A stretch of DNA of 60,108 nt from Alphaproteobacteria bacterium (GTDB taxonomy: Bacteria > Pseudomonadota > Alphaproteobacteria > Rhodobacterales > Rhodobacteraceae): positions 11,138-71,245 of the forward strand of contig JARFTV010000015.1 in NCBI GenBank assembly GCA_029289325.1, given 5' to 3'. Made by a program: the position numbers and the translations under genes. Below the pieces are notes generated by a model. That model ran no database searches, had not been told where the DNA came from, and saw nothing but the letters and a program-made list of their open reading frames with translations. Positions 18,494 to 37,732 of the stretch are shown one piece after another. Position 1 is the stretch's first letter; each line of letters opens with the position of its first letter.

Positions 18494-18508
18494 ATTGGAC
18501 TTGTCAAA
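18494..18508 (+). promoter_or_regulatory. Candidate operator, ATTGG-N7-AAA
   Basis: ATTGGACTTGTCAAA, 82 bp before the start of the SMP-30-like gene. It matches the 15-mer pattern shared by seven intergenic sites in the PQQ region and contains a LysR-type T-N11-A. It is one of the weaker matches. Confidence 0.4.
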
Positions 18509-18590
18509 GCTAAGCATTGCCCTGACCCCACTGGTCGGTGTCCCGGCATGTCGTCATCCTGACTCCGACGCTCAGTCTGGAGGGAATGAC

Positions 18591-19448
18591 ATGCGCTGTG
18601 CCGCCTTGACGGGAATCCTGCTTGCCTGCGCGGGCCTCGCCCATGCCGAAGCGACCGAGGTCTGGCGGTTGGGCGGCTTTAACGGGCCCGAGTCGGTGGG
18701 GCGCGACCCGGCGACGGGCAGGCTTTATGTCTCCAACTACGGCGCGGACCCGATGGCCCGGGACGGCGACGGGTTCATCTCGATCATCACGGCAGATGGC
18801 AGCATCGAGCGGCTGGACTGGGTGACCGGGCTGGACGGCCCGAAGGGCATCGACTTTGCCGGAGGCAAGCTCGTCATCGTCGACCTCGACCAGCTGGTCG
18901 AGATCGACACCGTGTCGGGAGAGATCACCGCCCGCCACAGGGTCGAGGGGGCGCAGCTGCTCAACGATGTGGCAGCGGGGCCGGATGGCCGGATCTATGT
19001 CTCCGACACGCTGGGCGCCGCTGTCCATGTGCTGGAAAACGGTGTGGTCAGCCTGCTTGTGCAGGACCCGCTTCTGAGCGGGGCCAATGGCCTTCTGGTC
19101 GAAGGTGACACGCTTCTGGTGGCGGAACTGGGGGATCTTTCCGGCGGGTTCGAGAACATCACGCCCGGCCCGGTGATGCGGGTCGATCTCGTGACCAAGG
19201 CGATCACCGCCTATGGGGCCGAGGGCCCGGTCGGAGTTCTGGACGGGGTCGAATCCGACGGCGAGGGCGGCCTTCTCCTGACGGATTTCATGGCGGGGAC
19301 GGTTCTGCAGCTGCAACCGGGCGGAACCGCTAGCCTGGTCGCCACTGTGGGGCAGGGTGCCGCAGACCTGGAGGTCGACCCGACCAACGGTCTGATCCTC
19401 GTTCCGGTTTCTCCCGCGAACGAGGTCGTGGCCCTCAGACGGAACTGA
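18591..19448 (+). CDS. Secreted SMP-30/gluconolactonase-like beta-propeller protein
   Basis: A 285-aa exported protein: signal peptide M-R-C-A-A-L-T-G-I-L-L-A-C-A-G-L-A-H-A, then repeated propeller blades (G-R-L-Y-V-S-N-Y-G, D-G-P-K-G-I-D-F, L-N-D-V-A-A-G-P-D-G-R-I-Y-V-S-D). The L-N-D-V and Y-V-S-D blocks are those that place metal ligands in SMP-30-type lactonases. A periplasmic lactonase would fit beside a periplasmic alcohol/aldose dehydrogenase, though a non-enzymatic propeller is equally possible. Strong RBS GGAGGG upstream of 18591. Confidence 0.82.
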   Translation: MRCAALTGILLACAGLAHAEATEVWRLGGFNGPESVGRDPATGRLYVSNYGADPMARDGDGFISIITADGSIERLDWVTGLDGPKGIDFAGGKLVIVDLDQLVEIDTVSGEITARHRVEGAQLLNDVAAGPDGRIYVSDTLGAAVHVLENGVVSLLVQDPLLSGANGLLVEGDTLLVAELGDLSGGFENITPGPVMRVDLVTKAITAYGAEGPVGVLDGVESDGEGGLLLTDFMAGTVLQLQPGGTASLVATVGQGAADLEVDPTNGLILVPVSPANEVVALRRN

Positions 19449-19497
19449 GGCTCCGGCCATTCCTCTGTCGCGGCGCTCACTCGGCGGACAGCGGCAT

Positions 19498-19519
19498 CCA
19501 TTGGTATTCCCAATAATGG
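19498..19519 (+). promoter_or_regulatory. Candidate LysR operator with nested dyad
   Basis: CCATTGG-TATTC-CCAAT-AATGG. The core ATTGGTATTCCCAAT (19500-19514) is a perfect 5-bp dyad containing T-N11-A, and outer arms CCATT/AATGG extend the symmetry. It lies about 70-90 bp before the LysR gene starts, suggesting autoregulation. Confidence 0.55.
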
Positions 19520-19603
19520 AAATTCGGGATAGCGATGTACTGCAATCTTCGCATGTCATGCCGTTCGGGTATGCTGACGGAAGAAATGCAGGGCAGCGCC
19601 ATC

Positions 19604-20605
19604 ATGGATTTCACCTTCCGCCAGCTGGAGATCTTTCGGGCCGTCGTGGTTTCGGGGTCGATCACCAAGGCGAGCCACCGGATCGGTCTTTCGCAGCCTT
19701 CGATCAGCCAGCAACTGGCCAAGCTGGAAGAAAGCCTTGGCGTGCAGCTGATCAACCGCAATCGGGCGAGCTCGGTCTCACTGACCCCGGCGGGCGATTA
19801 CTGGTATCGCGCCGCGCAAGAGCTAACCGAGCGGGTCCAGGCGATCGTGCAGGAGCATGACCAGAGCTTTCGGACGTCCAATCTGGTGCTGAAGCTAGGG
19901 ATCACCCCCGCGCTGCGTGGCAAGTTCCTGACCGCCGTCGCCCGGATCGCCCAGGAGGAGGCCAGTTTCCACCGTTTCGAACTGACCTATGACCTGAACT
20001 CCAGCCTCCTGGTCGAGCAGCTGCGCATGCACCGGATCAATTTCGGGGTCTTCGCGCTGGAGGCGCTGGCGGAGGACTCCAGTTCGTTCGTGGTGGCCGA
20101 TCTCTTCCTTGACACGATCATCTGGGCGGTGCCGGCCGCCGTCCCGGACGAGGAGCTGCGCAAGGCGCTGGACCCGGACCGCCGGGACGAGCCCCTGCAT
20201 CCGCTGCTGCGCCATTTTGTCGACATCGATCCACTGGTGCCCACGCGCACGGCGTCCAGCGAATGGTACCGTCTGCACATGCCGCAGGCTGCGCCATCCT
20301 TCCGGGCTCCGACCTTTGCCGCGTCGATCGAATTCGTGGCCGATGGTCTTGCAACCTGCCATATCGCCCGCTCGCTGGTGCCGAACCTCAGCCGGAACGT
20401 GCTGGACAATGTAAAACTCTTCAAGGTGGAAGGGTTTGAGCGCCATATCGTCCTGGCAATGCGAAAGCATTTCCTGTCGCATCCGACCTATGCCCGGATC
20501 TTCAACCGGATTGTCGATTATTGTCGCGAGGATTACGGGCCCGCGATGCAGGCACAGGTAATCCGGCCCTTGTCGGATCTGCAATCCAGATTGCGCGTCG
20601 CTTGA
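19604..20605 (+). CDS. LysR-family transcriptional regulator
   Basis: N-terminal winged helix-turn-helix (F-T-F-R-Q-L-E-I-F-R-A-V-V, S-Q-P-S-I-S-Q-Q-L-A-K-L-E) with a C-terminal effector-binding region of about 240 residues. The start is uncertain: ATG 19604 gives M-D-F-T-F-R and 333 aa, the usual LysR beginning; ATG 19586 behind GGAAG adds six residues. It sits at the left edge of the PQQ-alcohol-oxidation genes with a LysR-like operator in front, so it is the best candidate for their activator. A hairpin terminator follows. Confidence 0.88.
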   Translation: MDFTFRQLEIFRAVVVSGSITKASHRIGLSQPSISQQLAKLEESLGVQLINRNRASSVSLTPAGDYWYRAAQELTERVQAIVQEHDQSFRTSNLVLKLGITPALRGKFLTAVARIAQEEASFHRFELTYDLNSSLLVEQLRMHRINFGVFALEALAEDSSSFVVADLFLDTIIWAVPAAVPDEELRKALDPDRRDEPLHPLLRHFVDIDPLVPTRTASSEWYRLHMPQAAPSFRAPTFAASIEFVADGLATCHIARSLVPNLSRNVLDNVKLFKVEGFERHIVLAMRKHFLSHPTYARIFNRIVDYCREDYGPAMQAQVIRPLSDLQSRLRVA

Positions 20606-20626
20606 GTCAGAGTTTGGGGCGGAGGC

Positions 20627-20655
20627 TTTGAAACGGGACCGTCCCCGGTTTCAAA
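20627..20655 (+). terminator. Hairpin terminator after the LysR gene
   Basis: TTTGAAAC and GTTTCAAA arms with an inner GGG/CCC pairing, 22 bp after the LysR stop. No long T tract follows. Confidence 0.6.
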
Positions 20656-21019
20656 CTTCGGGGCCCTTGGATGCCATTACCCTGATCGCGGGATCGCCAC
20701 TTACCGTGCGGTACCTTGGGCGCAGGGCTTCCTCCGTCCAGCCATTCGATTTTCCAATATTCCAGATTTGTTTCCGCATGGTCCACCTGCCGCGGCCACA
20801 ACGGAGGCATGATCTGATGGAAATAGCCGTGAAGAAACAGCATCTTCCGTCACGTTCATTTACGGGAAGCGGGCGGCTATTCTGATATGAATCAGTGGGT
20901 TAGGGAAGGCACCGCGCACCGACCGCCTGCGCCGATCCATCCGCCTGGCCGACTGCGCGTGTCCACCGGGCGCTGGATTTGCCTGACCCTTGACCCTTGC
21001 TTGCCGGCCCGGGGTTGGC
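20656..21019. other. Intergenic stretch without a convincing gene
   Basis: About 360 bp between the LysR terminator and a sigma70-like promoter. Short readings on both strands lack ribosome sites and family resemblance. Apart from the candidate operator at 20744-20758 nothing was recognised. Confidence 0.6.
20744..20758 (-). promoter_or_regulatory. Candidate operator, ATTGG-N5-CGAAT
   Basis: Minus strand reads ATTGGAAAATCGAAT. One of the best matches to the shared 15-mer. It lies about 265 bp before the promoter-like sequence at 21020, farther than the other sites and in opposite orientation to the downstream gene. Confidence 0.45.
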
Positions 21020-21049
21020 TTGACCGCGCAAAAATCACGTTGTTACTAT
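21020..21049 (+). promoter_or_regulatory. Sigma70-like promoter upstream of the 4-TM protein
   Basis: TTGACC (21020-21025) and TACTAT (21044-21049) with an 18-bp spacer, giving a 5' leader of roughly 80 nt before ATG 21136. This is the best -35/-10 pair seen in the island. Confidence 0.55.
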
Positions 21050-21135
21050 CTATCTGCCGAGAGGCGCTCGGTAATGCCAATAAAAACATGAAGATAGCGG
21101 AAGGCCGCCTTTGGCGGGCCTGCATGGAGGGAGTC

Positions 21136-21735
21136 ATGGCCGAAAGTGTTGCAGTGCAAAGGAGTCGCGGAAATACCGGGGTCTGGATCTTCCGTATCCT
21201 CGTGATCGCGGGTGCCGCATTCATGCTTTATTCCTGGTTCGCGCCGTGGTGGACCGCGAAAGTCAGCGTCATTCCGGGCAAGGACCACCTTGTCCTGCGG
21301 CCATGGGGGGTCGAGGCGGTTGCCCAGGTCCGGGCCAATACCGACAAATCGCTTTATTCCATGCCGTGGTTCTTCGGTCCCTTCATGTGGACCTATCTCA
21401 CCCTGTGCATGTTGGCACTCGCTGCCAGCCTTTTCGTGGAAAGGAAGATATCGCTCGGACGGTTCAAGATTTCCCTTGCGACGCTGATGATCGGGATTGT
21501 CGGCTTTTCCTATATGGCCGCCGTCGGAATTGCCTATGGCGTCGGCGAATTGAAAGCCGGATGGGCCGACACCAACTTCATCGGGAAATCCACGATCAGG
21601 AACGCGATGACAGGCACCAGGATCAACATGGTCTCGGAATTGCTGATCGGTTACTGGCTGGCCCTTGCCGCGGGGGGAGTGCTGTTCTTCCTTGCCCTGA
21701 TCCGCTGGATTTTCGTCCGTGGGCCAAAGGCATAG
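21136..21735 (+). CDS. Four-helix membrane protein of unknown function
   Basis: A 199-aa inner-membrane protein with predicted helices near residues 16-34, 80-100, 112-134 and 166-190. A periplasmic loop between helices 1 and 2 holds a W-F-A-P-W-W motif and G-K-D-H. Start 21136 follows GGAGGGAG; the frame is open far upstream, but that part looks non-coding. It directly precedes the quinoprotein dehydrogenase gene and is separated from it by a strong hairpin, so it may be expressed alone at higher level. No family recognised. Confidence 0.8.
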   Translation: MAESVAVQRSRGNTGVWIFRILVIAGAAFMLYSWFAPWWTAKVSVIPGKDHLVLRPWGVEAVAQVRANTDKSLYSMPWFFGPFMWTYLTLCMLALAASLFVERKISLGRFKISLATLMIGIVGFSYMAAVGIAYGVGELKAGWADTNFIGKSTIRNAMTGTRINMVSELLIGYWLALAAGGVLFFLALIRWIFVRGPKA

Positions 21736-21760
21736 CACGATCTGAAAAGGGAAATGATTG

Positions 21761-21789: not shown

Positions 21790-21855
21790 TTTGCCTTGCC
21801 GTCGGCTGACGGGCCATTGCGCATAGTGCGCCGTCGCGGTGGGTCAATGATGTGT

Positions 21856-21870
21856 ATAGGAAAATCCAAA
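21856..21870 (+). promoter_or_regulatory. Candidate operator, ATAGG-N5-CCAAA
   Basis: ATAGGAAAATCCAAA, 65 bp before the dehydrogenase start. It shares G-G-A-A-A-A-T-C with the site at 20744-20758. Confidence 0.45.
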
Positions 21871-21895
21871 TCCCGAAGGTGCAAACATGCCCGCG

Positions 21896-21916: not shown

Positions 21917-21935
21917 TCCTTTGGGAGGGACACTG

Positions 21936-23684
21936 ATGAAAATGACGAGACTCCTCGCCGGATCCTGCGCCATGTCGCTGGCGATGGCCGGTACCGCCAC
22001 CATGGCGGAAGTGACGCCGGACCGGCTTTTGGCCGCCGGTTCCGAAGCCGAGGCCGGCAACTGGCTCATGGTCCACAAGACCTATGATTCCAATCGCTTT
22101 TCGCCGCTGAACCAGATCAATGCCGGCAATGTGGCCGGTCTCAAACTCGCCTTCGCCGTGCCGCTTGGCGGGCTGGAGCCGTCGGGCTTTGGCCTTGGCT
22201 ACATGGAAGGCACGCCGCTGGTCGACAACGGCTTCATGTATGTCAGCGATCCTTGGGGCACGCCGTACAAGGTCGACGTCTCCTCGGGCAAGCAGGGCAA
22301 GATGCTCTGGGTCTGCGATACCGGGATCGACAAGGACCCGAGCCGCGGCATCCTGCTGGCGCATCGCGGCCTGGCGCTGGCGGGCAACAACGTGATCACC
22401 GCGCTGAACGATGGCCGGGTCGTGGCCTGTGACAGCGAGACCGGGGATATCGTCTGGGAGCAGCAGGTCGGCACCGAGCCGGGCGAAGGCTTCACCGGCG
22501 CGCCGCTGGTCGTGGGGGACAAGGTTCTGGTTGGCCAGTCCTATGGCGACTGGGCGACGCGCGGCTGGCTTGCCGCGCTGAACGTCGAGACGGGTGAGGA
22601 GGTCTGGCGCTTCTACACGGTGCCGGAGCCGGGCCAGCCGGGTTCGGAAACCTGGAAATGTGACGAGGCCGGCAATCCCGACTGCTGGAAGACCGGCGGC
22701 GGCGCGCTTTGGGTAACGGGCGCCTATGACCCGGACTCGAACACCACGATCTGGGGCACGGGGAACCCGGTCCCGATGTTCGACCCCGAGTTCCGACCGG
22801 GCGACAATCTCTACACCAATTCGTCCATCGCGCTGGACATGGATACTGGCGAGCTGAAGTGGCACTTCCAGTACACGCCCGGCGACTACATGGACTATGA
22901 TGAGGTCGGCGTTCAGCTCCTGATGGATGCCAAGATCAATGGCGAAGACCGCAAGGTCCTGTCGCACTTTGGACGGAACGGGCTGTTCTACACCCTGGAC
23001 CGGACCAATGGCGCCTATATCCAGTCGGCGCAGTATGTCAGCGAGCTGAACTGGACCAAGGGGCTTGATCCCAAGACCGGCATGCCGCTGGAGTATGACC
23101 CCTCGAAATCGCTGCAGACCTATGCCCTGGGCGTGATCAACCGCGACGGTGCCACGGCGACCAGCTGCCCGGACATTCGCGGTGGGGTGAACTTCTATCC
23201 GACGGCCTACAACCCCGCCACCGGCGTGGCCTATGGCGCCGGCATGGAGGGTTGCTCGGAGATCGCCACCAAGGAAGTCGCGGTCGAGGACGTCGTCCCC
23301 GGTTCGATCTTCCTCGGCGGGACCTACTCCAACTCGGACGCGATGACCGGCTCGATCACGGCGATCGACGTGACGACCGGCACGCAGGTGTCGAAGGCGG
23401 AAACCCCCTATCCGAACAACAGCGGCGTTCTGGTGACGCCGGACCTGATCTGGACGGGGGCGCTGGACGGCACGCTGGGCGCCTATGACGCCAAGTCGCT
23501 GGACCAGCTTTGGTCGATCAACGTCGGCACCGGCTTCCGTGCCCCGCCGATGACCTATTCGGTCGATGGCAAGCAGTATATCGCCATCGCCGGGGGCAAC
23601 GTCGGGCCAAGCAACGCCATGGGTCATGCGGAGCTGGAGATGATCCAGCCGGCCAACATGATCTGGGTCTTCGCGGTCGAGTGA
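21936..23684 (+). CDS. PQQ-dependent alcohol dehydrogenase, periplasmic quinoprotein
   Basis: Quinoprotein of the methanol/ethanol dehydrogenase superfamily, oxidising alcohols in the periplasm with PQQ and passing electrons to cytochrome c. It has 582 aa with a signal peptide (cleavage near A24-E25) and repeated tryptophan-docking propeller blades, and no fused haem domain. By alignment to MxaF/XoxF the metal/PQQ residues are Asp205 (usually Glu), Asn277 in G-T-G-N-P, catalytic Asp320, and Asp322 two residues on. That D-Y-D pattern is the mark of lanthanide-type enzymes. The usual vicinal Cys-Cys that contacts PQQ is absent; the position reads Gly138-Ile139. RBS GGGAGG. The substrate is not certain; polyols or larger alcohols are possible. 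Confidence 0.9.
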   Translation: MKMTRLLAGSCAMSLAMAGTATMAEVTPDRLLAAGSEAEAGNWLMVHKTYDSNRFSPLNQINAGNVAGLKLAFAVPLGGLEPSGFGLGYMEGTPLVDNGFMYVSDPWGTPYKVDVSSGKQGKMLWVCDTGIDKDPSRGILLAHRGLALAGNNVITALNDGRVVACDSETGDIVWEQQVGTEPGEGFTGAPLVVGDKVLVGQSYGDWATRGWLAALNVETGEEVWRFYTVPEPGQPGSETWKCDEAGNPDCWKTGGGALWVTGAYDPDSNTTIWGTGNPVPMFDPEFRPGDNLYTNSSIALDMDTGELKWHFQYTPGDYMDYDEVGVQLLMDAKINGEDRKVLSHFGRNGLFYTLDRTNGAYIQSAQYVSELNWTKGLDPKTGMPLEYDPSKSLQTYALGVINRDGATATSCPDIRGGVNFYPTAYNPATGVAYGAGMEGCSEIATKEVAVEDVVPGSIFLGGTYSNSDAMTGSITAIDVTTGTQVSKAETPYPNNSGVLVTPDLIWTGALDGTLGAYDAKSLDQLWSINVGTGFRAPPMTYSVDGKQYIAIAGGNVGPSNAMGHAELEMIQPANMIWVFAVE

Positions 23685-23699
23685 TCGTCGCATCACCCT

Positions 23700-23764: not shown

Positions 23765-24274
23765 ATGCCAATGACCCGCGCCCCGGCCGTGTCGCTTGCG
23801 CTGTCGCTTCTGGCCGCACCCATGGCTCCTGCTCAGGAGACAGGCGCGGCGCCGGGTGATCCTGAACGGGGGAAGATCGTCTATCGGACCTTGGGGAACT
23901 GCGTGAGCTGCCATGGCTGGGCCGCCGACGGAAAGGCGGGTGTCGATCTGCGCGCTCCCACCGGACCCGATCTGCGGGAAACCGCACTGGACGAGGCGTC
24001 ACTGACCGAGGTGATCCGATGCGGACGTCCGGGCACCGCGATGCCCTATCACGACCGGGCCGCGTATCGTGACGACCGCTGCTACGGGCTGGTGATGGCC
24101 GATTTCGACGATGCGGGAAAGCCCGTGCGCGGCAAGACCTTCGGCGAGGCTGATCTCGCCAGTCTCGTCGCCTACCTGCAGGCCCGCGTGATCGGCCAAG
24201 GCAAGCCGACGCGTGAGGACTGTGCAGAATTCTTCGACAACCCGGCCGCCAAGGCCTGCAGTAACCTGAAGTGA
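23765..24274 (+). CDS. Periplasmic c-type cytochrome, electron acceptor candidate
   Basis: A 169-aa exported protein (signal peptide through about A-P-A-Q) with one haem-binding motif C-V-S-C-H (Cys46, Cys49, His50) and a probable axial Met93 in G-T-A-M-P-Y. Extra cysteines (R-C-G, R-C-Y-G, E-D-C, K-A-C) may form disulfides. Position directly after the quinoprotein gene makes it the likely electron acceptor, analogous to cytochrome cL/c550, but it belongs to neither by obvious motif. Start ATG 23765; a second ATG lies two codons later. Confidence 0.88.
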   Translation: MPMTRAPAVSLALSLLAAPMAPAQETGAAPGDPERGKIVYRTLGNCVSCHGWAADGKAGVDLRAPTGPDLRETALDEASLTEVIRCGRPGTAMPYHDRAAYRDDRCYGLVMADFDDAGKPVRGKTFGEADLASLVAYLQARVIGQGKPTREDCAEFFDNPAAKACSNLK

Positions 24275-24277
24275 GCC

Positions 24278-25009
24278 GTGCGCAGCAAAACCTTTCCTGC
24301 CCTCATCTGCCTGAGCCTTGCGGGGCACTCCGCGCTGGGCCAGGTGCAGATCGAACCGGTGTTTTCCATCTGGGATGTCCAGCTTGGCCAGCCTGTCGCG
24401 CAGATATCGGATGGCGTTGTCGGTGAGATTGCCTGTGGCACCAACGGTGGCCCGCCGGGACAGATGCTCGCCTCCTTCGCGGACTTCGAGACCTGTCCGC
24501 CCGAACCCTCTGGCCTTCGCGAGGTCACGTTCAACTATGACGACGAACAGGACTATATCGCGATGGCGCTTGAGGTCGGCTACAAGTTCCTGCAGGGCGG
24601 CACCTCGGTCTTCGCGCATCCGGTGATCGTGTCGGTGCTGATCGATGAAGCGGGCATCGTCCGGGGGCGCCGCATCGTGACGGACGACCGGATCGCGATC
24701 AACGACCGCCGCACCGCCGTCACCCTCATCCGCAATTTCAAGGCGCGTTACGGTAGCTGGTCGCTTGATTGCGCGGATATCGCCATGAAGGAAGGCGAGC
24801 AGCCGGTCGGCAACCAGTTCATCCACGAAATCTGCATCGGGCAGTCACCGGACGGGGGCACCCGCATCGCCATCGAGGCCAGCTACCTGCGCAAGAAGGG
24901 CCAGCGCGCGCTGAACCTGGAAACGCAGGCGGTCAACAAGGGCTATTTCGAAAGCAAGACCCGATATGACGAGGTGCTGGTTCCCTATGATCCGGTGGTC
25001 GGGCCATGA
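24278..25009 (+). CDS. Exported protein of unknown function in the PQQ cluster
   Basis: A 243-aa protein from a GTG start three bases after the cytochrome stop, with a signal peptide (M-R-S-K-T-F-P-A-L-I-C-L-S-L-A-G-H-S-A-L-G-Q). The mature part is mixed alpha/beta with a central E-V-G-Y-K-F segment and four cysteines. Tight linkage to the cytochrome gene suggests a periplasmic partner or assembly factor of the dehydrogenase-cytochrome pair. Family not recognised. Confidence 0.75.
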   Translation: MRSKTFPALICLSLAGHSALGQVQIEPVFSIWDVQLGQPVAQISDGVVGEIACGTNGGPPGQMLASFADFETCPPEPSGLREVTFNYDDEQDYIAMALEVGYKFLQGGTSVFAHPVIVSVLIDEAGIVRGRRIVTDDRIAINDRRTAVTLIRNFKARYGSWSLDCADIAMKEGEQPVGNQFIHEICIGQSPDGGTRIAIEASYLRKKGQRALNLETQAVNKGYFESKTRYDEVLVPYDPVVGP

Positions 25010-25011
25010 GG

Positions 25012-25761
25012 TCACTCTTGCAGCCGGCCGTCCGCCATGAAGTTGCCGGTCATGCTGGCCTTGTCGAATTCGACGCCCGCAACTGCTGCGGTGGTGAAGC
25101 GATTGCCGGTCAGGGTGGCGCCGGCGACCTTGGCGCGGCGCAGATCGGCTTTGTAGAAGTCGGTGAACAGTATCCTCGAGCCGACAAAGCTCGCGCTGCC
25201 GGCCTTGGCCTTGACGAGGCCGGCATGGCTGATCGTGGCCCCGTCGAACAGGCTGCGGCCAAGATGCGCCCCGGCCAGATTGGTCTGCCGGATCGAGGCA
25301 TTGCTGAAATCGGCGCTGTTGGCGACCGCATCCCGCATCACCGCCCGATCCAGCACAGCGCCCGGCAACCTGGCCGAGGTGAGCCGCGCGGTCTGCAGCC
25401 GCGCCTCGCTCAGATCGGCGGCCGCAAGGTCCGCACCGGACATCTGCGCGCCGTAGAACAGCCCGCGCGAGAAATCGCCGCCCGCCATCTGGGCCTGGGT
25501 CAGGTCGGCGAGATTGAAATTGGCGTCCACCGCCGTCACCCCGGTCAGGACCGCTCCCTTCAGCCGTGCGCGGTGGAAGGTGGCCTTGGTGAGATTCGCC
25601 CCCGTCAGATCCACCCCGCTCAGATCGGCCTTCTTGAAGTTCGCGCCTTGCAGGTCGCAGCCGCGACATTCCCGGATCGTTCCGGCGATCAGATCGGCCA
25701 CCTGATCCGCAAGGACGGGGCCCGTCATCAGGGCCAGGGCCGCGGCCAGCACGATGCGCAT
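25012..25761 (-). CDS. Exported pentapeptide-repeat protein
   Basis: A 249-aa protein: signal peptide M-R-I-V-L-A-A-A-L-A-L-M-T-G-P-V-L-A, a short C-R-G-C motif, then about 200 residues of pentapeptide repeats of A(D/N)Lxx type (G-A-N-F-K-K-A-D-L-S-G-V-D-L-T-G-A-N-L) forming a right-handed quadrilateral beta-helix. The C-R-G-C pair at the cap is seen in other exported members and could be a disulfide. Role unknown. Converges on the preceding gene with 2 bp between stops and diverges from the nuclease-like gene. Confidence 0.88.
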   Translation of the reverse strand: MRIVLAAALALMTGPVLADQVADLIAGTIRECRGCDLQGANFKKADLSGVDLTGANLTKATFHRARLKGAVLTGVTAVDANFNLADLTQAQMAGGDFSRGLFYGAQMSGADLAAADLSEARLQTARLTSARLPGAVLDRAVMRDAVANSADFSNASIRQTNLAGAHLGRSLFDGATISHAGLVKAKAGSASFVGSRILFTDFYKADLRRAKVAGATLTGNRFTTAAVAGVEFDKASMTGNFMADGRLQE

Positions 25762-30568: not shown

Positions 30569-30590
30569 CACAGCCCATCCACCCTTCACC

Positions 30591-31583
30591 TCACTTGCGG
30601 TAGCCGGACCAGAAGGTGCCATCGGCCAGACCGTCGCTGCCGCCCGTAAGATCGGCGCCCCCGAACTTCGCCATCACCGCATAGGCTTCGATCGCTGCCT
30701 GGATGTCCGCATCCGAGTAACCTTCGACGATCCCGGCCCGGTAGGCATCGCGCAGCGCCAGGAACAGCGCGTCATCGTCGACGTTCATCGCCGGACGGAT
30801 CTTTTCCCACAAGGCGTCATCGGTCATCAGTGCTGCCTTGGTCTGGAACGAGGCGTCAAGGAAGCGCTGAATCGCCTCGGGCTCCTTGGCTGCATAGGCC
30901 TCGGAGAAGACCCAGCCCAGAAGCGGCGGCGTCTTCGACACGCCAAGCTCCTGCATGATTTCCTGCACCGAGATCAGCTCCGTGGCCCCGGCGACGGCAG
31001 CGCGCGCGTTGAAATGCCAGAAGTTCAGGCTGGCATCGGCCTGCCCGCCCAGCAGTTGTTCGTTCACCAGTGGCGGCGCACCGAAGGTGGTCGAGGCATC
31101 CTGCGTCAGGTCCCCGCCGGTCTGCGCGTTGTAATAGGCCTGCAGCATGAGATAGCTCTTGTCGACCGGCCCACCGGCGACGGCCAGCGTGGCTCCCTTG
31201 AGGTCGGCGACCGATTTCACCTTGCTATCGGGCAGGACCATCAGCCCGCCCACGGCCAGCGAATGTGGCACGATGGTGAAATCCGCGCCCTGGTCCCGTT
31301 GCAGCGAGGCCCAGATGAAATCCGACAGGATCACATCCACCTTGCCCGCCTGTAGCGCCACCTGTCCGGCCTTGCTGTCGGCCACGTTGCGGATCTTGAG
31401 CTTGATCTCGTTCCGGGAATCCAGCTTCAACTCTTGCATCGCGGCGATTTCCCACGACGCTGTCCCGCCTTCCTGCAGGGCCAGATCGACCTCTTTTGCC
31501 GGTGGGCTAAAGGCGGAAAGCCCCATCCAGACCCCCGACATTACCGCCGTGAGGCCCAGGCCTCTGATCCAGCCACGCATCAT
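30591..31583 (-). CDS. ABC transporter substrate-binding protein, NitT/TauT type
   Basis: A 330-aa periplasmic binding protein of the SsuA/TauA/ThiY class: signal sequence, then two-lobed fold with D-V-I-L-S-D-F-I-W-A-S-L, V-A-D-L-K-G-A-T-L-A-V and G-G-Q-A-D-A-S-L-N-F-W. Two adjacent ATGs (31583, 31580) follow AGGGAGAGG. The ligand is unknown. Its operon lies between the PQQ-system genes and carries a matching operator, so uptake of something needed for alcohol oxidation is the inference. Confidence 0.88.
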   Translation of the reverse strand: MMRGWIRGLGLTAVMSGVWMGLSAFSPPAKEVDLALQEGGTASWEIAAMQELKLDSRNEIKLKIRNVADSKAGQVALQAGKVDVILSDFIWASLQRDQGADFTIVPHSLAVGGLMVLPDSKVKSVADLKGATLAVAGGPVDKSYLMLQAYYNAQTGGDLTQDASTTFGAPPLVNEQLLGGQADASLNFWHFNARAAVAGATELISVQEIMQELGVSKTPPLLGWVFSEAYAAKEPEAIQRFLDASFQTKAALMTDDALWEKIRPAMNVDDDALFLALRDAYRAGIVEGYSDADIQAAIEAYAVMAKFGGADLTGGSDGLADGTFWSGYRK

Positions 31584-31658: not shown

Positions 31659-31673
31659 ATTCGCGTTCCCAAT
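31659..31673 (-). promoter_or_regulatory. Candidate operator of the NitT-type operon
   Basis: Minus strand reads ATTGGGAACGCGAAT, 75 bp before the binding-protein start and in the same orientation. A strong match to the shared ATTGG-N5-CSAAT pattern. Confidence 0.5.
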
Positions 31674-31683
31674 GTTGAACATT
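31671..31683. promoter_or_regulatory. 13-bp palindrome AATGTTGAACATT
   Basis: A perfect inverted repeat of 6 bp around a central G in the divergent promoter region, overlapping the end of the candidate operator at 31659-31673. Possibly a site for a second regulator. Confidence 0.4.
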
Positions 31684-31751
31684 TCCGGTCCCGATCCCCG
31701 GCAAACGGGCAACTCGCGCAAGCGCCATCGGTTCCGGGGGCGGTGCCGCCT

Positions 31752-31766
31752 ATTGGTAAAACCTAT
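31752..31766 (+). promoter_or_regulatory. Candidate operator of the plus-strand accessory operon
   Basis: ATTGGTAAAACCTAT, 87 bp before the start of the next gene and in its orientation. Shares ATTGGTA and CC with the site before the LysR gene. Confidence 0.5.
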
Positions 31767-31853
31767 TCTTAGCATTGCAAAGCATGAGTTGACCGAACGT
31801 CACGCCGGACCCGAAGTTCGTTGGCGGAATTCAGAAATTCGGGAGGAACCGGG

Positions 31854-32291
31854 ATGAAAAAGTTCAGCAAGGCCGCCGGAGTGCGTCGTGCCGTCGCGGC
31901 GGTGGCGATGGTCATGGCCGCAGCGCCAACTCTGGCCGAAGGCAACCTGGCGTCCAAACCCGTGGACCTGCCCGAACTGATGCTGACCGGCGATCTGAAG
32001 ATGAGCCAGTCCGAATACCAGCTGGAAACCGGCAAATACTACCGCCTCAACATCTCGTCGGACGGACAGGAGGAATTCGCCTGGATGGCGCCCGAGCTGT
32101 TCCGGAACGTCTGGGTCAACCAGGTGGTGGTCAACGATCTCGAGGTCAAGGCGGCCGATATCTACAGCCTGGAATTCGACGCCGCCGGGACCTTCGAGCT
32201 GACCTTCGTTCCGATCCGGCCGGGTCGCTACGACTTCTATGTCAACGGCTATCAGCGGCAGGGCATGATCGGCGCCTTCGTGGTGAACTGA
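31854..32291 (+). CDS. Exported cupredoxin-like protein, first gene of the accessory operon
   Basis: A 145-aa protein with a signal peptide (ending about A-P-T-L-A-E) and a beta-sandwich-like mature domain: Y-Y-R-L-N-I-S-S-D-G, T-F-E-L-T-F-V-P-I-R-P-G-R-Y-D-F-Y-V. The pattern recalls cupredoxin-like proteins encoded beside quinoprotein dehydrogenases, but the Cys-His-His-Met copper ligands are not evident, so a metal-free accessory role is possible. RBS GGGAGGAA. Starts a run with the beta-propeller, binding-protein and permease genes. Confidence 0.72.
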   Translation: MKKFSKAAGVRRAVAAVAMVMAAAPTLAEGNLASKPVDLPELMLTGDLKMSQSEYQLETGKYYRLNISSDGQEEFAWMAPELFRNVWVNQVVVNDLEVKAADIYSLEFDAAGTFELTFVPIRPGRYDFYVNGYQRQGMIGAFVVN

Positions 32292-32302
32292 GGGGGCCGG
32301 CC

Positions 32303-33277
32303 ATGCGCATCATTCCGACCCTCTGTCTGGCGGCGGCCCTTGCTTGGGCGGGCGGCGCCGCCTTGGCCAAGGACACCGGCCTGATCTTCGTCAGCCTCGA
32401 GCGTGGCAACGAGGTGGTCGTGCTGAATCCCGACCTCAGCGTGAACACCCGCATCGAAACCTCGCGCCGGCCACGCGACATGCAGTTCAACAAGGACCGC
32501 ACCCTGCTCTATGTCGCCTGCGGCGATGATGACGCCATCGACGTGATCGACGTGGCAACGCTGGAAGTCATCGATTCCATCCCCACCGGTCCCAGCCCCG
32601 AGGTCTTTGCCTTCTCGCCCGACGAAAGCCAGATCTTCGTTTCGAACGAGGAAGACTCGACGATGGAGATCATCGATGTCGCCACCAAGACCGTGGTCGA
32701 ACGCATCGCGACCGGGGCCGAACCCGAGGGCGTGATCAACTCGGTCGATGGCCAGTACATCTTCGTCACGTCGGAAGTTGCCGACATGGTCCATGTCGTC
32801 GACCGGGCCAAGGCCGCCGTGATCAAGAACATCATCGTCGGCACCAGACCGCGCCGCTTTGTCGTGACGCCAGACGGGGCGGATCTCTGGGTCAGCGACG
32901 AACTGTCCTCCGAGGTCCATGTCATCGATGTCGCGACCCTTGAGATCAAGACGGTCCTCAGCTTCGTCCCCCCCGGCTTCCGCCCCGAGGATGTCACTCC
33001 GGTCGGCATGGCCGTCACCAGGGACGGGTCCAAGGTCATCGTGACGCTTGGTCGGGCCAACCATGTGGCGATCGTCGATGCCAGGACCTTTGATGTCCTG
33101 CAATATGTGCTGGTCGGCAGCCGCGCCTGGGATGTGGCGCTGACGGCAGACGAAAAGACCGCCTATGTGGCAAACGGCCTGTCCGACGACATCACCGTGG
33201 TCGACATGGTCTCGATGGTGCCGGTGCAGTCGCTTCCGGTGGGGCGCACGCCGCATTCGATCCGGGTGGATGACTGA
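32303..33277 (+). CDS. PQQ-dependent catabolism-associated beta-propeller protein
   Basis: A 324-aa exported protein of YVTN repeats: blades such as V-V-V-L-N-P-D-L, E-V-F-A-F-S-P-D-E-S-Q-I-F-V-S-N and T-V-V-D-M-V-S-M-V-P-V-Q. Propeller proteins of this type are restricted to gene clusters for PQQ-dependent alcohol oxidation. The likely role is periplasmic, linked to the ABC transporter encoded by the next genes. Begins 11 bp after the cupredoxin-like gene; its stop overlaps the next start (ATGACTGA). Confidence 0.88.
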   Translation: MRIIPTLCLAAALAWAGGAALAKDTGLIFVSLERGNEVVVLNPDLSVNTRIETSRRPRDMQFNKDRTLLYVACGDDDAIDVIDVATLEVIDSIPTGPSPEVFAFSPDESQIFVSNEEDSTMEIIDVATKTVVERIATGAEPEGVINSVDGQYIFVTSEVADMVHVVDRAKAAVIKNIIVGTRPRRFVVTPDGADLWVSDELSSEVHVIDVATLEIKTVLSFVPPGFRPEDVTPVGMAVTRDGSKVIVTLGRANHVAIVDARTFDVLQYVLVGSRAWDVALTADEKTAYVANGLSDDITVVDMVSMVPVQSLPVGRTPHSIRVDD

Positions 33278-34424
33278 AATGCGTTGGGCCCTGATCCTGC
33301 TCGCCCTTGCCACTCCGGCATTGGGCGACGATCTGAAGATCGGCCATCTGAGCCTGGCAGAGGACCCGCGCTATGTGCAGGACTGGGGCTATGCCCGGCT
33401 GATCACCCCGCCGCCGGTCGTTACGGCCGATGCGGCGCGGATGGCGATCACCGACCTGCAGTTCACCACGGATGCGGTCGGGCTGACGGTGACGCTGGAC
33501 GCCCAGGCGGTGGCCGAGACTGACGTGGTGACCACCGCGCAGAAGATGGTGGCCGATGGCACGGCCTATCTGGTGCTAGACCTGCCGGGCGCGGCGGTCG
33601 CGGCCGTGGCCGTGGCGCTGAAGGACCAGCCGGTGCTCATGGTCAACGCGACCGCGCCCGAGGACAGCCTGCGCAGTGCCTGCCATGCGAACATGGTCCA
33701 CTCCGGCCCCTCGCGGCGGCAGGAGACCGATGCATTCGCGCAGTATCTGCGTGCGATGGGCTGGGACAATGTCCTGATCCTGCAAGGCGACAGCCCGGAG
33801 GACAGCGACTTCGCGGATGCCTTCACCGCCTCGGCGGAAAGGCTGCGGCTGACCGTGGTCGACCGCAAGCCCTTTACCCTTGCCGCCGATCCCGGGAACC
33901 GCGAGGGCAACAACGTCCGGCTCCTTACCGCGGAGCGCAATTATGACGTGGTCTTCGTGGCTGACACCCGGGGCGAATTCGCCCGCTACGTGCCCTACGC
34001 CACGCAGTTGCCGCGTCCGGTGATCGGCTCGGTCGGCTTGACCTCGCAAGCCTGGCACTGGGCGCTGGAACGCGACGGAGCCACGCAGGTCTCCTCGCGT
34101 TTCGACAAGCTGACCGGGCGCAAGATCCAGCCCGCCGACTGGAACGTCTGGATCGCGGTCAAGTCGCTGATCACCGCCGCGATGAAGACGCCGGGTGCGG
34201 ATCCGGCCAAGCTGCGGGACTACGTCACCTCGCATCGGCTTAAGCTGGACGGATCGAAGGGCGTGACGCTCAACTACCGCCCGTGGGACGGGCAGTTGCG
34301 CCAGCCCATCCTTCTGGCAACGACCGAAGCGGTGATCGCGATCGCTCCGATTCAGGGGTTCACCCACCAGACGACCACGCTGGACACGCTGGGCGCGGAT
34401 GAGGCGGAATTCGTGTGCAACTGA
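33270..34424 (+). CDS. Periplasmic binding protein of the PQQ-alcohol-dehydrogenase ABC system
   Basis: A 384-aa exported protein (signal M-R-W-A-L-I-L-L-A-L-A-T-P-A-L-G) of the branched-chain-amino-acid-binding-like fold: D-L-P-G-A-A-V-A-A-V-A, M-V-N-A-T-A-P-E-D-S-L-R, G-W-D-N-V-L-I-L-Q-G-D-S-P, Y-D-V-V-F-V-A-D-T. It matches the substrate-binding-like subunit found in ped-like clusters. Start 33270 overlaps the previous stop; 33279 is an alternative. Confidence 0.87.
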   Translation: MTEMRWALILLALATPALGDDLKIGHLSLAEDPRYVQDWGYARLITPPPVVTADAARMAITDLQFTTDAVGLTVTLDAQAVAETDVVTTAQKMVADGTAYLVLDLPGAAVAAVAVALKDQPVLMVNATAPEDSLRSACHANMVHSGPSRRQETDAFAQYLRAMGWDNVLILQGDSPEDSDFADAFTASAERLRLTVVDRKPFTLAADPGNREGNNVRLLTAERNYDVVFVADTRGEFARYVPYATQLPRPVIGSVGLTSQAWHWALERDGATQVSSRFDKLTGRKIQPADWNVWIAVKSLITAAMKTPGADPAKLRDYVTSHRLKLDGSKGVTLNYRPWDGQLRQPILLATTEAVIAIAPIQGFTHQTTTLDTLGADEAEFVCN

Positions 34425-35227
34425 CGGGACGGACCCTTGCGCTTGGGCTCTGGGTGGTGACCGAGCGAGAGCTGATGAAGTTCCTCCGCCAGCGCGAACG
34501 GCTTTTCTCCGCGCTGGTGCGGCCCTCGCTCTGGCTGATCGTCTTCGCATCGGGCCTGCACGACCTTCTGGGCATCTCGATCATCCCGCCCTATCGGACC
34601 TACACGCCCTATCAGGAATACATCCTGCCCGGCCTGCTGGGGATGATCGTCCTGTTCCAGGCCATGCAATCGGCGCTGTCGCTGGTCTATGACCGCGAAA
34701 GCGGGGTGATGCGGGTGATGCTGGTGACGCCCTTGCCCCGGCCCTATCTGCTTTTCGCGAAGATCCTGGCCGCCACCGTCCTGTGCCTCGTGCAATCCGC
34801 GGCCTTCCTGGCCGTAGCGGCGCTTTTCGGCATCCGTCTTCCCTTGGCGACCCTCGCGCTTGTCGTCCCGGCCCTCATCGCCGCGGGCCTCATGCTGGGG
34901 GCGATCGGTCTTGTCGTGTCGGTCTACACCCGCCAGATCGAGAATTTCGCGGGGATGATGAACTTTGTCATCTTCCCGATGTTCTTCCTGTCCTCGGCGC
35001 TTTACCCGCTGTGGAAGCTGCGCGAGGCCGGCGCGCAGGCGATCTACTGGATTGCCGTGGTCAATCCCTTCACCCATGCTGTGGAGCTGATCCGCTTTGC
35101 CGCCTACGGGCAGTTCAACCCGGTCAGCTGCGCAGTGGTGGTCGGCGTGGCGCTTGTGGCCTTCGCCCTGGCGGTGCGGGGATACAACCCGCTGATCGGC
35201 ACCATCCGCCAGATCAAGCGCGACTGA
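34415..35227 (+). CDS. ABC-2 type permease, PedC-like, of the PQQ-alcohol system
   Basis: A 270-aa inner-membrane protein with about six helices, GTG start at 34415 overlapping the preceding gene by 10 bp. The ABC-2 core is visible (Y-I-L-P-G-L-L-G-M-I-V-L-F, D-R-E-S-G-V-M-R-V-M-L-V-T-P, P-M-F-F-L-S-S-A-L-Y-P-L). PedC-like permeases accompany PQQ alcohol dehydrogenases and may export something needed for alcohol tolerance or PQQ handling; the cargo is not established. Its ATPase is at 28351-29100. Confidence 0.87.
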   Translation: MQLTGRTLALGLWVVTERELMKFLRQRERLFSALVRPSLWLIVFASGLHDLLGISIIPPYRTYTPYQEYILPGLLGMIVLFQAMQSALSLVYDRESGVMRVMLVTPLPRPYLLFAKILAATVLCLVQSAAFLAVAALFGIRLPLATLALVVPALIAAGLMLGAIGLVVSVYTRQIENFAGMMNFVIFPMFFLSSALYPLWKLREAGAQAIYWIAVVNPFTHAVELIRFAAYGQFNPVSCAVVVGVALVAFALAVRGYNPLIGTIRQIKRD

Positions 35228-36037
35228 TCAGCTCCGGCGCAGGAAGGGCAGAAGCAGGCTTGCCAGCCCGAAGATCAGGACGCCCGACAGAAGCGCGCCG
35301 ATCAGCCAGCGCGACCAGCGCAAGGGCTCCATGTCCGCGCCGAACCAGCCCCGGTCGCCCCAGAGGAGCACCCGCCCCCGCATCCCCCCGGCCGCGCCCA
35401 GCCTGATCGTGCGGCCGAGGTCTTCCTCCATCGCACTTTCGCCCAGCCATAGCGTCACCTGACGGACCTGACCCGCCGCCATCGCGCCCAATTCCAGCGC
35501 CTTCAGCCCGGTCGAGGTGGTGGTGATCCTGACCTTTTCCCCGTCCACCTCGGCCAGAAGTGCGCCCGGCACGGTCAGCGCGACGTCCTGCGTATCTGCG
35601 CTGCTGCGCAGGGTCCCGCGGATGGTGCGGCGGAAATTCCCGATGTCGAGGATCGCCGAAAGCTCGGGGATCTCATGCATCATCGCCTGCACCGCCACCA
35701 CATTCATCAGCCGCGGCAGGACGATGTCCTTAACCTTCTTTATCACGTCGGACTTCAGCGTCATGCGGATGGCGACGTCATTCTCCAGCCGTTGGGCCAG
35801 TTCATCGGCCATGAACCCCGCCACCCGGGTCGGGTTCAGCCCGAAGTCCGAAGGCACCAGAAAGTCCTGCACGACCAGCTCTGCCTGAAGGGCAGGGGGC
35901 GCCAGCACAGGTCCCTGGCCAGCCAGGACGGCCAGCCCCAGCCCCGCCGCAAGCGTCAGGCCAAGCGAGAACAGGATCTGCCAGAACCGCAATGAAGCCT
36001 CCCCCGGTGTCGGGCGGATGCTAGACCGGCGCGCCAT
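35228..36037 (-). CDS. Two-helix membrane protein with large periplasmic domain
   Basis: A 269-aa protein with an N-terminal helix near 17-40 and a C-terminal helix near 240-262. The intervening 200 residues are predicted periplasmic, with V-A-I-R-M-T-L-K-S-D-V-I-K-K-V and a late W-L-G-E-S segment. No family recognised. It is convergent with the PedC-like gene (stops abut) and divergent from the lipocalin gene, so it is a unit of its own inside the island. Confidence 0.7.
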   Translation of the reverse strand: MARRSSIRPTPGEASLRFWQILFSLGLTLAAGLGLAVLAGQGPVLAPPALQAELVVQDFLVPSDFGLNPTRVAGFMADELAQRLENDVAIRMTLKSDVIKKVKDIVLPRLMNVVAVQAMMHEIPELSAILDIGNFRRTIRGTLRSSADTQDVALTVPGALLAEVDGEKVRITTTSTGLKALELGAMAAGQVRQVTLWLGESAMEEDLGRTIRLGAAGGMRGRVLLWGDRGWFGADMEPLRWSRWLIGALLSGVLIFGLASLLLPFLRRS

Positions 36038-36107
36038 TGGAAATGCCGAAGACCAAGATTGGCCCTTCCCCCGGCAAACTGCCGTCTGATCGGCCCGAGG
36101 GGACCGA

Positions 36108-36653
36108 ATGACTGGGGGGGACATGTGGAAGACGCTGGTTCTGTCGGCACTTCTGCCGCAGGCGCTTCAGGCCGGGCCGCTGCGGGACAGGTCGGTCCCG
36201 CTGGTGGCGGTCGAGGGCTTTGATCAGGCGCGGCTGGTGGGGGATTGGTACGAGGTCGCCCAGACTCCGACCTTTCTTGAACAGGATTGCCACGGCACCA
36301 CGGTCGCCGTGGCCACGCGTGAGGACAGCCGCCTGACGTTCAAGATCGCCTGCCGCAAGGGCTCTGTCTCCGGCCCCGTCATGCCGTTGGAGGGTATTCT
36401 GGTGCAGACCGGCGCCGGTCGGTTCCACTTGCGGTTGTTTCGACTGGCCGAGTTGGGTAACCTGCCCCTCACGCTTCTCTGGCAGGCCCCCGATGACAGC
36501 ATGGCCGTGCTGGGGGCTTCCTTCGGCGAGGTGGGATGGATCTGGTCCAAGACGCCGCATCCCGACCCCGCCGCCCTTGACGTGGCCAAGGCTATCCTGG
36601 TGGCAGCGGGCTACCGGGCCGACATGATCCGAAACGTGGAGCAGGCACCATGA
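36108..36653 (+). CDS. Lipocalin family protein (Blc-like)
   Basis: A 181-aa exported protein with the lipocalin signature G-D-W-Y-E-V-A (about residues 45-51), a mid-strand Cys pair (D-C-H-G, I-A-C-R-K) and the W-I-W-S-K-T-P motif of bacterial lipocalins. Bacterial lipocalins bind fatty acids or lysolipids at the envelope. Here the N terminus is a cleavable signal, with no lipobox seen. ATG 36123 behind GGGGGG is an equally good start. Its stop overlaps the following LysR start by 4 bp. Confidence 0.85.
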   Translation: MTGGDMWKTLVLSALLPQALQAGPLRDRSVPLVAVEGFDQARLVGDWYEVAQTPTFLEQDCHGTTVAVATREDSRLTFKIACRKGSVSGPVMPLEGILVQTGAGRFHLRLFRLAELGNLPLTLLWQAPDDSMAVLGASFGEVGWIWSKTPHPDPAALDVAKAILVAAGYRADMIRNVEQAP

Positions 36654-37684
36654 GCGAGCCTGAATTCGTCGATCCCGAACTTCCCAGGGTCAAAGGGCTG
36701 GGGTCCGCTGGCAACGACATCTCCATCCGGCGCCTGCAGGTGTTCTGGGCGGTGTCGCATACCGGCTCGATGACGCGCGCAGCCAAGATGCTAGGCGTGT
36801 CGCAACCCAGCCTTTCGCAGCAACTCGCCGGTTTCGAGGCCGCGATCGGCGGCCGGCTCTTCGATCGCCGCGCCGGGCAGATGGAACTGACCGAACTCGG
36901 CCATTCGATCCTGGGGCGGGCAGAACAGGTTCTGCGCAGCGTGCAGGACCTTGAGGATATCCTGCCCAGCACGCCCGGCGGCGGTCCGCGAAGGTCGCTG
37001 CGGATCTGCGGGGCGGGCAGCGTGATGCGGACCCTTCTGCCCAAGGCCATGCTGCAGCTGGACGTTCCGCTGGATCATCTGGATTTCGACCTGCAGGAGG
37101 GCGCGCCGGGCGAGGTGCTTGAGGCGCTTTATGCCCGGCGCGCCCATATCGGCCTCGTCGCCGCCGGCTCGCTGCCCGATGCCGCAATGAGCTTCCGTCA
37201 GGTCCCGCTCCTGTCCGATCCTTATGTGCTGGCGGTCCCGTCGCGGCTTGATCTGTCCCGCTGCGCCCGACTGGCCGACCTTCCCGATGTGGATCAGGCG
37301 CTGCTTGGCACGACGCTGCAATTCGTCTTCGGCACGCAGCACAGCCGGCGGGTGCAGGACTGGTACGACCGGGTCATGCCGGGCAACCGGACCCTGGCCC
37401 GCGTGCGCAATTTCGAGACCATGATCGAAATGACCCGCGCCGGTCTTGGTGTCTGCATTGTGCCCGCCCTGAACTTCGCCGAGGGCGGGCTGCCGGTCAG
37501 GGGCCTCCGGCTTTACCGCACCGGGCTGGAGGAACGCCGGATCGTGGCGCTGCTTCTGTCGCAGCATCAGACGACCGCGCCGTTCAGCTCGATGATCGCC
37601 GCGCTGACCGCCGCCGGAAGCAAGATCATGCTGCCCGCGACAGAGCCCGCGCCGCCCTTCATCGCCGGTCCCATGAAGATGTGA
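36650..37684 (+). CDS. LysR-family transcriptional regulator, second of the island
   Basis: A 344-aa regulator with a winged helix-turn-helix at about residues 25-85 (I-R-R-L-Q-V-F-W-A-V-S, S-Q-P-S-L-S-Q-Q-L-A-G-F-E) and a periplasmic-binding-protein-like effector domain. Co-transcribed with the lipocalin gene (ATGA overlap) and placed just before pqqA, making it a candidate regulator of pqq expression. It is not a close copy of the first LysR protein. Confidence 0.9.
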   Translation: MSEPEFVDPELPRVKGLGSAGNDISIRRLQVFWAVSHTGSMTRAAKMLGVSQPSLSQQLAGFEAAIGGRLFDRRAGQMELTELGHSILGRAEQVLRSVQDLEDILPSTPGGGPRRSLRICGAGSVMRTLLPKAMLQLDVPLDHLDFDLQEGAPGEVLEALYARRAHIGLVAAGSLPDAAMSFRQVPLLSDPYVLAVPSRLDLSRCARLADLPDVDQALLGTTLQFVFGTQHSRRVQDWYDRVMPGNRTLARVRNFETMIEMTRAGLGVCIVPALNFAEGGLPVRGLRLYRTGLEERRIVALLLSQHQTTAPFSSMIAALTAAGSKIMLPATEPAPPFIAGPMKM

Positions 37685-37717
37685 TGACCCCCGCGACCGC
37701 CTGCCCGGCCTCGGCCA

Positions 37718-37732
37718 ATAGGAACCCCGAAA
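37718..37732 (+). promoter_or_regulatory. Candidate operator upstream of pqqA
   Basis: ATAGGAACCCCGAAA, about 185 bp before the pqqA start and 105 bp before the TATAAT at 37838. Matches the shared ATWGG-N5-CSAAW pattern. Confidence 0.4.

Follow-up and report, generated by a model that had tools for sequence, protein, structure and literature searches.

The 60,108-nucleotide stretch of DNA analyzed here (the window; contig C58, JARFTV010000015.1, of a 4.17-Mb alphaproteobacterial genome) carries between 18 and 42 kb an SMP-like gene, a LysR-type regulator gene (LysR1), a membrane protein gene, a pyrroloquinoline quinone (PQQ) alcohol dehydrogenase gene, cytochrome c-like and accessory genes, two groups of ATP-binding cassette (ABC) genes, a second LysR-type gene (LysR2) and pqqA-E. 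This island is probably controlled by two paralogous LysR regulators that use one operator layout and are split by a one-base preference, with LysR1 acting on the dehydrogenase-transport genes and on itself and LysR2 acting on PQQ synthesis. The predicted operator is 26 bp long; its three half-sites, each of 4 bp, follow one another every 11 bp as CWAT-N7-ATWG-N7-CWAT, where W is A or T and N7 is any seven bases.

Six of the seven 15-bp sequences that an initial annotation had proposed as the sites of a single LysR regulon belong to this operator. All seven were found in place and on the correct strand, each as a single copy in the window. Their proposed consensus, ATWGG-N5-CSAAW (S is C or G), is not matched by the site at 18494; its T-N11-A core is retained and corresponds to the right-hand pair ATWG-N7-CWAT, an interrupted T-N11-A palindrome of the kind expected of a LysR-type operator, with an A/T-rich centre (positions 18-21). 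The third half-site lies outside the letters used in the initial annotation and is present at 11 bp in six of the seven sites. At offset 11 the mismatches of the flanking half-site, from the first site to the seventh, are 0, 1, 1, 0, 1, 0 and 3 (sum 6), the sums at the other eight offsets are 15-22, and none of 20,000 shuffles equals offset 11; these shuffles keep the base composition of the flanks rather than their dinucleotides, and the offset was first noticed by eye. It is this result that leads to the 26-bp reading of the operator. Across 59 operators, chosen for their match to the pattern, position 13 is T in 59/59 and position 25 is A in 53/59.

Counts in the window and in its own genome bear on both forms of the site. 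The 15-bp consensus has 24 strand matches at 21 places in the genome, with 7 places in the 60-kb window, and its backwards control has 19 strand matches genome-wide; one unlisted match (19868-19882) falls within the LysR1 gene. Because the consensus was drawn from the seven sites themselves, this count is only suggestive, and other tests are therefore needed. When the window is scanned for the 26-bp form with at most one mismatch, spacing 7/7 gives six matches and each of 24 nearby spacings gives at most two; at up to two mismatches the corresponding numbers are 15 and at most 10. The own genome contains the form with at most one mismatch at 12 places, six of which lie within the window (1.4% of the genome). 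Among the six places outside, three (L120, L121 and L128) are under long open frames of high GC content at third codon positions and three (L127, L129 and L130) are under none listed.

Conservation was evaluated in ten other islands, identified by searches with LysR1, LysR2 and the dehydrogenase (G153, G165, G229, G396, G425-G428, G431 and G738). They come from five genera in two families, only one of them from the second family, and six of the ten genomes belong to one genus. The island is rare and scattered in Alphaproteobacteria: a dehydrogenase at E <= 1e-160 occurs in 5/394 genomes of the family and 4/385 of the class, the own genome included in each. The held-out test, which is the blind one, runs a matrix built from the seven sites on the orthologous regions, excluding the window, with 1000 dinucleotide shuffles per region. 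The matrix beats the shuffles in all five promoter classes, with Fisher p values of 2e-8 (dehydrogenase), 3e-8 (cupredoxin/ssuA), 1.5e-7 (LysR1-membrane protein), 3e-6 (LysR1) and 3e-5 (SMP-like), which are too small because the genomes are related and which include many single regions that are not significant. Conservation before the same orthologues, named in the initial annotation as an outcome that would support it, is also seen with the 26-bp form: at spacing 7/7 and at most one mismatch it occurs in 31/41 upstream regions of the ten islands (dehydrogenase 7/10, cupredoxin/ssuA 9/10, LysR1-membrane protein 6/7, LysR1 6/10, SMP-like 3/4), and none of 80 other spacings exceeds 8. When seven classes are counted in six representative genomes, 7/7 gives 24/36 and other spacings at most 5; the ten islands together with L031, a locus of a Rhodobacteraceae metagenome-assembled genome (G424), give 46/62 and at most 8 for the same seven classes. 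The 31/41 count measures the exclusiveness of the 7/7 spacing, not blind prediction, and it includes all regions, among them those of G738 (left out of the cupredoxin alignment) and of G426, G427 and G431 (dehydrogenase promoters aligned apart).

An alternative, that the A/T-rich DNA between genes yields such sites by chance, can point to the genome-wide count of the 15-bp consensus, which is little above its control. Its probability is close to negligible, since the held-out dinucleotide shuffles and the spacing controls contradict it for most sites. Chance may account for two individual sequences, the 15-mer at 37718 and a one-mismatch site at 35040-35065. The latter was rejected as probably fortuitous: it lies inside the permease gene, and no match with at most one mismatch is labelled within the permease in the relatives scanned.

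The individual sites, listed in Table 1, mostly agree in position. In six of the eight LysR1-type operators, 65-78 bp separate the near edge from the start codon; the sites at 20744 and 36036 break the rule, and the former is 366 bp off. The operator before LysR1, present in six of the ten other islands as well, makes autoregulation of LysR1 probable, an operator before its own gene being the mark of a self-regulating LysR protein. The site at 20744 recurs with at most one mismatch in 6/7 orthologous regions, in some of which the flanking letters are kept too, and the site at 21845 aligns in seven orthologous islands at a near-constant distance to the start codon. An operator with no mismatch stands before an SMP-like gene of 33-34% identity in three other genomes. 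The operator at 25832, found with at most one mismatch in 7/10 islands, overlaps the 5' end of the SNase-like gene, where two rare codons are kept, TTG in 8/8 and TCA in 7/8 sequences (window included); in 13 window genes TTG makes up 22/440 leucine codons and TCA 5/212 serine codons. The retention of rare codons at this place points to selection on the DNA. The initial annotation had one site for each direction near 31.7 kb: the site at 31752 is exact and widely conserved, and the site at 31659 is weak, with no counterpart at <=1 mismatch on the ssuA side in the relatives scanned. The site at 36036 has at most one mismatch in 8/11 regions, L031 included, although two of those eight (G427 and G431) adjoin a gene of 28-29% identity.

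At pqqA the initial annotation does not hold. Its site, at 37718, lacks the third half-site (three mismatches) and has no counterpart in six relatives, and it was rejected as the pqqA operator. In six other genomes LysR2 directly precedes pqqA, and all six contain an exact CTAT-N7-ATAG at 89-123 bp from pqqA; in the same six, spacings of 2-15 other than 7 give no exact match. The window counterpart, at 37828 and 91 bp from pqqA, has one mismatch and lies within 37817-37842. The three-half-site form is less general here, being present at up to two mismatches in 5/7 genomes, window included. The predicted pqqA operator is not of the CAAT-type class; it is of the CTAT/ATAG type, which goes with the LysR2 clade. 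Conservation and spacing lend strong support to the proposal of a single LysR regulon of 15-bp sites as far as a LysR-type regulon is concerned, and the proposal fails in the size of the site, the membership of pqqA and completeness.

The assignment of two regulators is based on their phylogeny and on the half-sites near them. Homologues of LysR1 and LysR2 form separate clades (support 100/100), and the window LysR2 groups among the pqqA-linked homologues (95/94); distant LysR1-like genes in L093 and L094 (31-32% identity) stand outside every tree and count. The 59 LysR1-type operators, window included, contain 101 exact CAAT and 29 exact CTAT half-sites, and 11 other operators, seven of pqqA and four next to ssuB, contain 0 and 23 (Fisher 3e-13, with rows that are not independent). 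In each of the 11 islands compared, LysR1 adjoins the dehydrogenase or lies one gene from it, which is partly selection, eight of the ten having been found via LysR1 itself and two (G396 and G738) via other queries. No operator stands before any of five dehydrogenase copies without LysR1 nearby (G457 and G459; best 3-5 mismatches), a comparison weakened by the 50-58% identity of these copies and by two of the five upstream regions being shorter than 100 bp. For these two reasons, the constant neighbourhood and the LysR1-less copies, LysR1 is the likelier binder of the CAAT type. The suggestion that one of the two LysR genes of the island binds all sites thereby keeps LysR1 as the likely CAAT-type reader, and the pqqA type is likely read by LysR2, in both cases by association only. 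In a separate observation, three dehydrogenase copies stand in tandem in one of these genomes (G457, locus L102), accompanied by cytochrome, pentapeptide and SNase-like genes, and the stretch has no LysR1 match.

A single LysR protein, either LysR1 or LysR2, might instead bind all operators including that of pqqA, with CAAT and CTAT as variants of one motif. The shared layout of the two classes, the near-identical recognition helices and the share of CTAT in LysR1-type operators (29/130 exact halves) agree with this explanation, which is nevertheless unlikely: an exact CAAT half occurs in 0/11 LysR2-type operators, the site at 37718 is not conserved, and four genomes with LysR2 before pqqA (G048, G051, G091 and G275) keep CTAT operators and have no LysR1 match at E <= 1e-40, in a first look that scores the best candidates only and a sample that does not extend to G386. 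It is less probable still that both proteins bind most operators and cross-regulate by competition or mixed oligomers. Such an arrangement would fit the common layout, the similar helices and the presence of both genes in one island, and is opposed by half-site types that mostly separate by clade in other genomes.

Several observations weigh against two regulators with distinct half-sites in a three-part operator. With respect to the regulators, the recognition helices of LysR1 and LysR2 are nearly the same, so cross-binding is possible. In G431 and G427 (L088/L089) the half-sites before the dehydrogenase are of the form CTAT-N7-ATAG despite an adjacent LysR1. The preference for one half-site type is therefore not absolute, and a switch of type is possible there. 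The four ssuB-neighbour operators (G018, G153, G396 and G425) were chosen after the scan, in genomes that have a relative of LysR2 linked to ABC genes; they lie 157-181 bp past the 3' end of ssuB and are not assigned to a target gene, and a fifth genome of this kind, G165, has no operator at <=1 mismatch. With respect to the layout, the letters of the half-sites and the spacing of 7/7 came from visual inspection of the very regions in which they were then counted, and the counts are not blind. At two mismatches the own genome has 178 strand matches and the control 122; the pattern being this common, the sites at 20744, 31659, 36036 and 37817 rest on conservation, of which 31659 has little. Three or more mismatches are found in the LysR1-membrane protein region of G153, before LysR1 in G165 and G396, before the cupredoxin gene in G738, in the pentapeptide regions of G426, G427 and G431, in the 36-kb regions of G153 and G426, and before the closest SMP-like orthologue (G153). 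The dehydrogenase promoters of G426, G427 and G431 are rearranged, with matches elsewhere and in opposite orientation that are less certain, and spacing 8/7 comes close to 7/7 in the pentapeptide class (6/10 and 7/10). A fourth half-site at <=1 mismatch occurs in 9/59 operators on the left and 6/59 on the right, no better than other offsets (0-11/59); it was dropped, and the four half-sites that characterize an OxyR operator are not found.

Matches outside the island further limit how the pattern can be used. In four genomes listed in full, the island holds 6/27 (G165), 7/55 (G396), 7/23 (G229) and 9/27 (G425) of the strand matches, for island spans set by hand from neighbourhood searches. The whole-genome controls have 14, 10, 10 and 12 matches, fewer in all four than the pattern has outside the island, which makes the backwards pattern a poor null in these genomes. 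The 26-bp pattern alone is too loose for finding targets outside the island. In the genome of L031, the 15-bp consensus has 61 strand matches, none closer to its LysR2 than about 13 kb, and it is the 26-bp form, unlike the consensus, that finds one conserved site beside that gene. At L031:8279-11400 the permease match covers residue 174 onwards only, and the stretch retrieved has no match to pqqB-E after LysR2; this island may be broken or mis-assembled. No island genes are present in G424:C6:40000-59999. Plasmid searches at E <= 1e-40 return no LysR2 relative and one distant LysR1 relative.

The closest known operator is that of OxyR, which, according to passages of PMC8787470, recognizes two tandem ATAG-N7-CTAT repeats 7-10 bp apart. 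The 4-bp half-sites, the N7 within each pair and the 7- to 10-bp gap between pairs described there are matched by the island operators, and the letters of the pqqA type are identical; in contrast to OxyR, the island sites have three detectable half-sites instead of four and prefer CAAT/ATTG. By analogy, the island operator would resemble an OxyR operator minus one outer half-site. A global LysR protein such as OxyR could therefore be imagined as the binder, given that its repeats share half-site and step with the pqqA operator, yet this is very improbable: the sites go with the island and its own LysR genes, and the four-part pattern is missing. The island proteins themselves fall far below the OxyR models and are not OxyR (the genome's own OxyR being outside this comparison); LysR1 scores 48.9 bits against 500 for NF050018 and 40.5 against 329 for NF008361, and LysR2 scores 49.7 against 329 for NF008361. 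The BenM/CatM system, as described in parts of PMC6628147, uses ATAC-N7-GTAT at sites 1-3 with effector-driven shifts between sites. It shares the T-N11-A palindrome, the internal N7 and several sites per promoter, and the PDB matches of LysR1 include BenM; the half-site letters differ, and in the island the middle half-site is common to two overlapping palindromes. Clusters of the PedE/PedH/ExaF type with TIGR03861/63/64/66 resemble the island in enzyme class and in accessory ABC genes, for which two of the four models exceed their cut-offs here; the island differs in its local LysR genes. In Methylorubrum extorquens AM1, a LysR-type regulator came from transposon mutagenesis on methanol/lanthanum, its disruption causing no severe growth defect; the passages of PMC7391723 on it give neither an operator nor a regulon. 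This LysR protein, likewise tied to lanthanide methanol growth, is likened here by description only. A description of the present regulon was not found among open-access PMC articles by title and start of abstract, nor by a search with OxyR terms.

Table 1. Predicted operators and genes of the island, in window coordinates (distances run from the near edge of the site to the start codon and come from coordinate arithmetic)
Feature	Coordinates	Strand	Remarks
LysR1-type operator before SMP-30/NHL-like gene	18494..18519	-	ATTG-N7-CAAA-N7-ATTG; 71 bp; 1 mismatch
Operator before LysR1	19500..19525	-	ATTG-N7-CAAT-N7-ATTC; 78 bp; 1 mismatch; <=1 mismatch in 6/10 islands
Operator between LysR1 (138 bp past its end) and membrane-protein gene (366 bp to its start)	20744..20769	-	ATTC-N7-CAAT-N7-ATTT; 2 mismatches
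Operator before quinoprotein dehydrogenase	21845..21870	+	CAAT-N7-ATAG-N7-CAAA; 65 bp; 1 mismatch
Operator before pentapeptide-repeat gene (minus strand)	25832..25857	+	70 bp; 1 mismatch; absent from initial annotation
Weaker operator before ssuA-like gene	31659..31684	-	ATTC-N7-CAAT-N7-ATTT; 78 bp; 2 mismatches
Operator before cupredoxin-like/PQQ-ABC operon	31752..31777	-	ATTG-N7-CTAT-N7-ATTG; 76 bp; exact; <=1 mismatch in 9/10 islands
Operator between 35.2-36.0 kb gene and lipocalin gene	36036..36061	-	2 mismatches in window, 1 in L031; absent from initial annotation
pqqA operator, LysR2 type (in place of 37718)	37817..37842	-	ATAA-N7-CTAT-N7-ATAA; 75 bp; 2 mismatches
SMP-30/NHL-like protein, putative target	18591..19448	+	NHL 21.3 bits against 20; SGL under its cut-off
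LysR1, proposed binder of CAAT-type operators	19604..20605	+	HTH_1 and LysR_substrate
Membrane protein, family unknown	21136..21735	+	conserved in 7/10 other islands
PQQ alcohol dehydrogenase (PedH/ExaF-like), putative target	21936..23684	+	TIGR03075 449.7 bits; best PDB match 6zcv/6zcw
Cytochrome c-like gene and unknown gene, 3' of dehydrogenase	23765..25009	+	weak cytochrome matches, CxxCH by reading; gene order conserved
Pentapeptide-repeat protein, putative target	25012..25761	-	start read from sequence
ABC transporter genes, putative target	28351..31580	-	TIGR03864-like ATPase (below cut-off), SsuB/C/A-like
Cupredoxin-like gene, TIGR03866 propeller, TIGR03863-like binding protein (below cut-off), TIGR03861 permease; putative target	31854..35227	+	
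LysR2, proposed binder of pqqA operator	36650..37684	+	HTH_1 and LysR_substrate; precedes pqqA in six other genomes; tree
pqqA-pqqE, putative LysR2 target	37918..41182	+	pqqB-E by tblastn to other genomes; pqqA read from sequence

Both regulators score above cut-off for HTH_1 and LysR_substrate, as LysR-type proteins do. The dehydrogenase aligns to the quinoprotein ethanol dehydrogenase 6zcv along residues 50-579 of 582, yet it remains below the curated cut-off of the methanol/ethanol family TIGR03075 (480.05 bits), so it is regarded as a relative of that family and not called a member. Its D-Y-D aligns with D-F-D of 6zcv/6zcw, and it does not have the adjacent cysteine pair of that protein. 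We take 6zcv/6zcw to be of the lanthanide type and these positions to be the PedH lanthanide-binding residues. Of the accessory ABC models, TIGR03861 and TIGR03866 are the two above cut-off. The membrane protein at 21136-21735 has no family or PDB matches, and its gene has a sigma70-like promoter of its own, conserved as TTGAC...TACTAT-like sequence. A MotA/TolQ/ExbB-like gene and two unknown conserved genes at 26341-28347 are present in all ten other islands.

The proposed mechanism, which extends to binders, tetramer, activation, sign and effector, builds on the sites, their spacing and conservation, the gene neighbourhood and the two half-site types. LysR1 would bind three half-sites on one face of the DNA at 11-bp steps, with CAAT/ATTG preferred. 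Under the general LysR tetramer model, the left half-site would belong, as its inner half, to another dimer site that is degenerate, and the tetramer would probably cover about 40 bp. A tetramer seated on the left half-site and on the strong pair to its right, with 65-78 bp left to the start codon, would fit activation. LysR1 would then switch on the SMP-like gene, the dehydrogenase, the pentapeptide protein and the two transporter operons, as well as regulating its own gene. LysR2 would recognize the same layout in its CTAT/ATAG form upstream of pqqA and thereby couple the cofactor supply. The effector is perhaps the alcohol or its oxidation product. A more elaborate and distinctly tentative version is a two-register switch, in which the central ATWG is common to a left and a right palindrome, a dimer shifts by 11 bp between silent and active positions on binding the effector, and the paralogues divide enzyme and cofactor control by one base.

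Judged from sequence, the system is ordinary in kind, being a LysR regulon, and its operator is unusually clean. For a dehydrogenase-transport island that is uncharacterised and occurs in scattered Alphaproteobacteria, it provides an operator defined precisely enough to be tested. Control of the enzyme would be separated from control of its cofactor, and LysR1 and LysR2 would constitute a natural paralogue pair in which the DNA preference of a LysR protein has changed by one base and the geometry of the operator has been kept.

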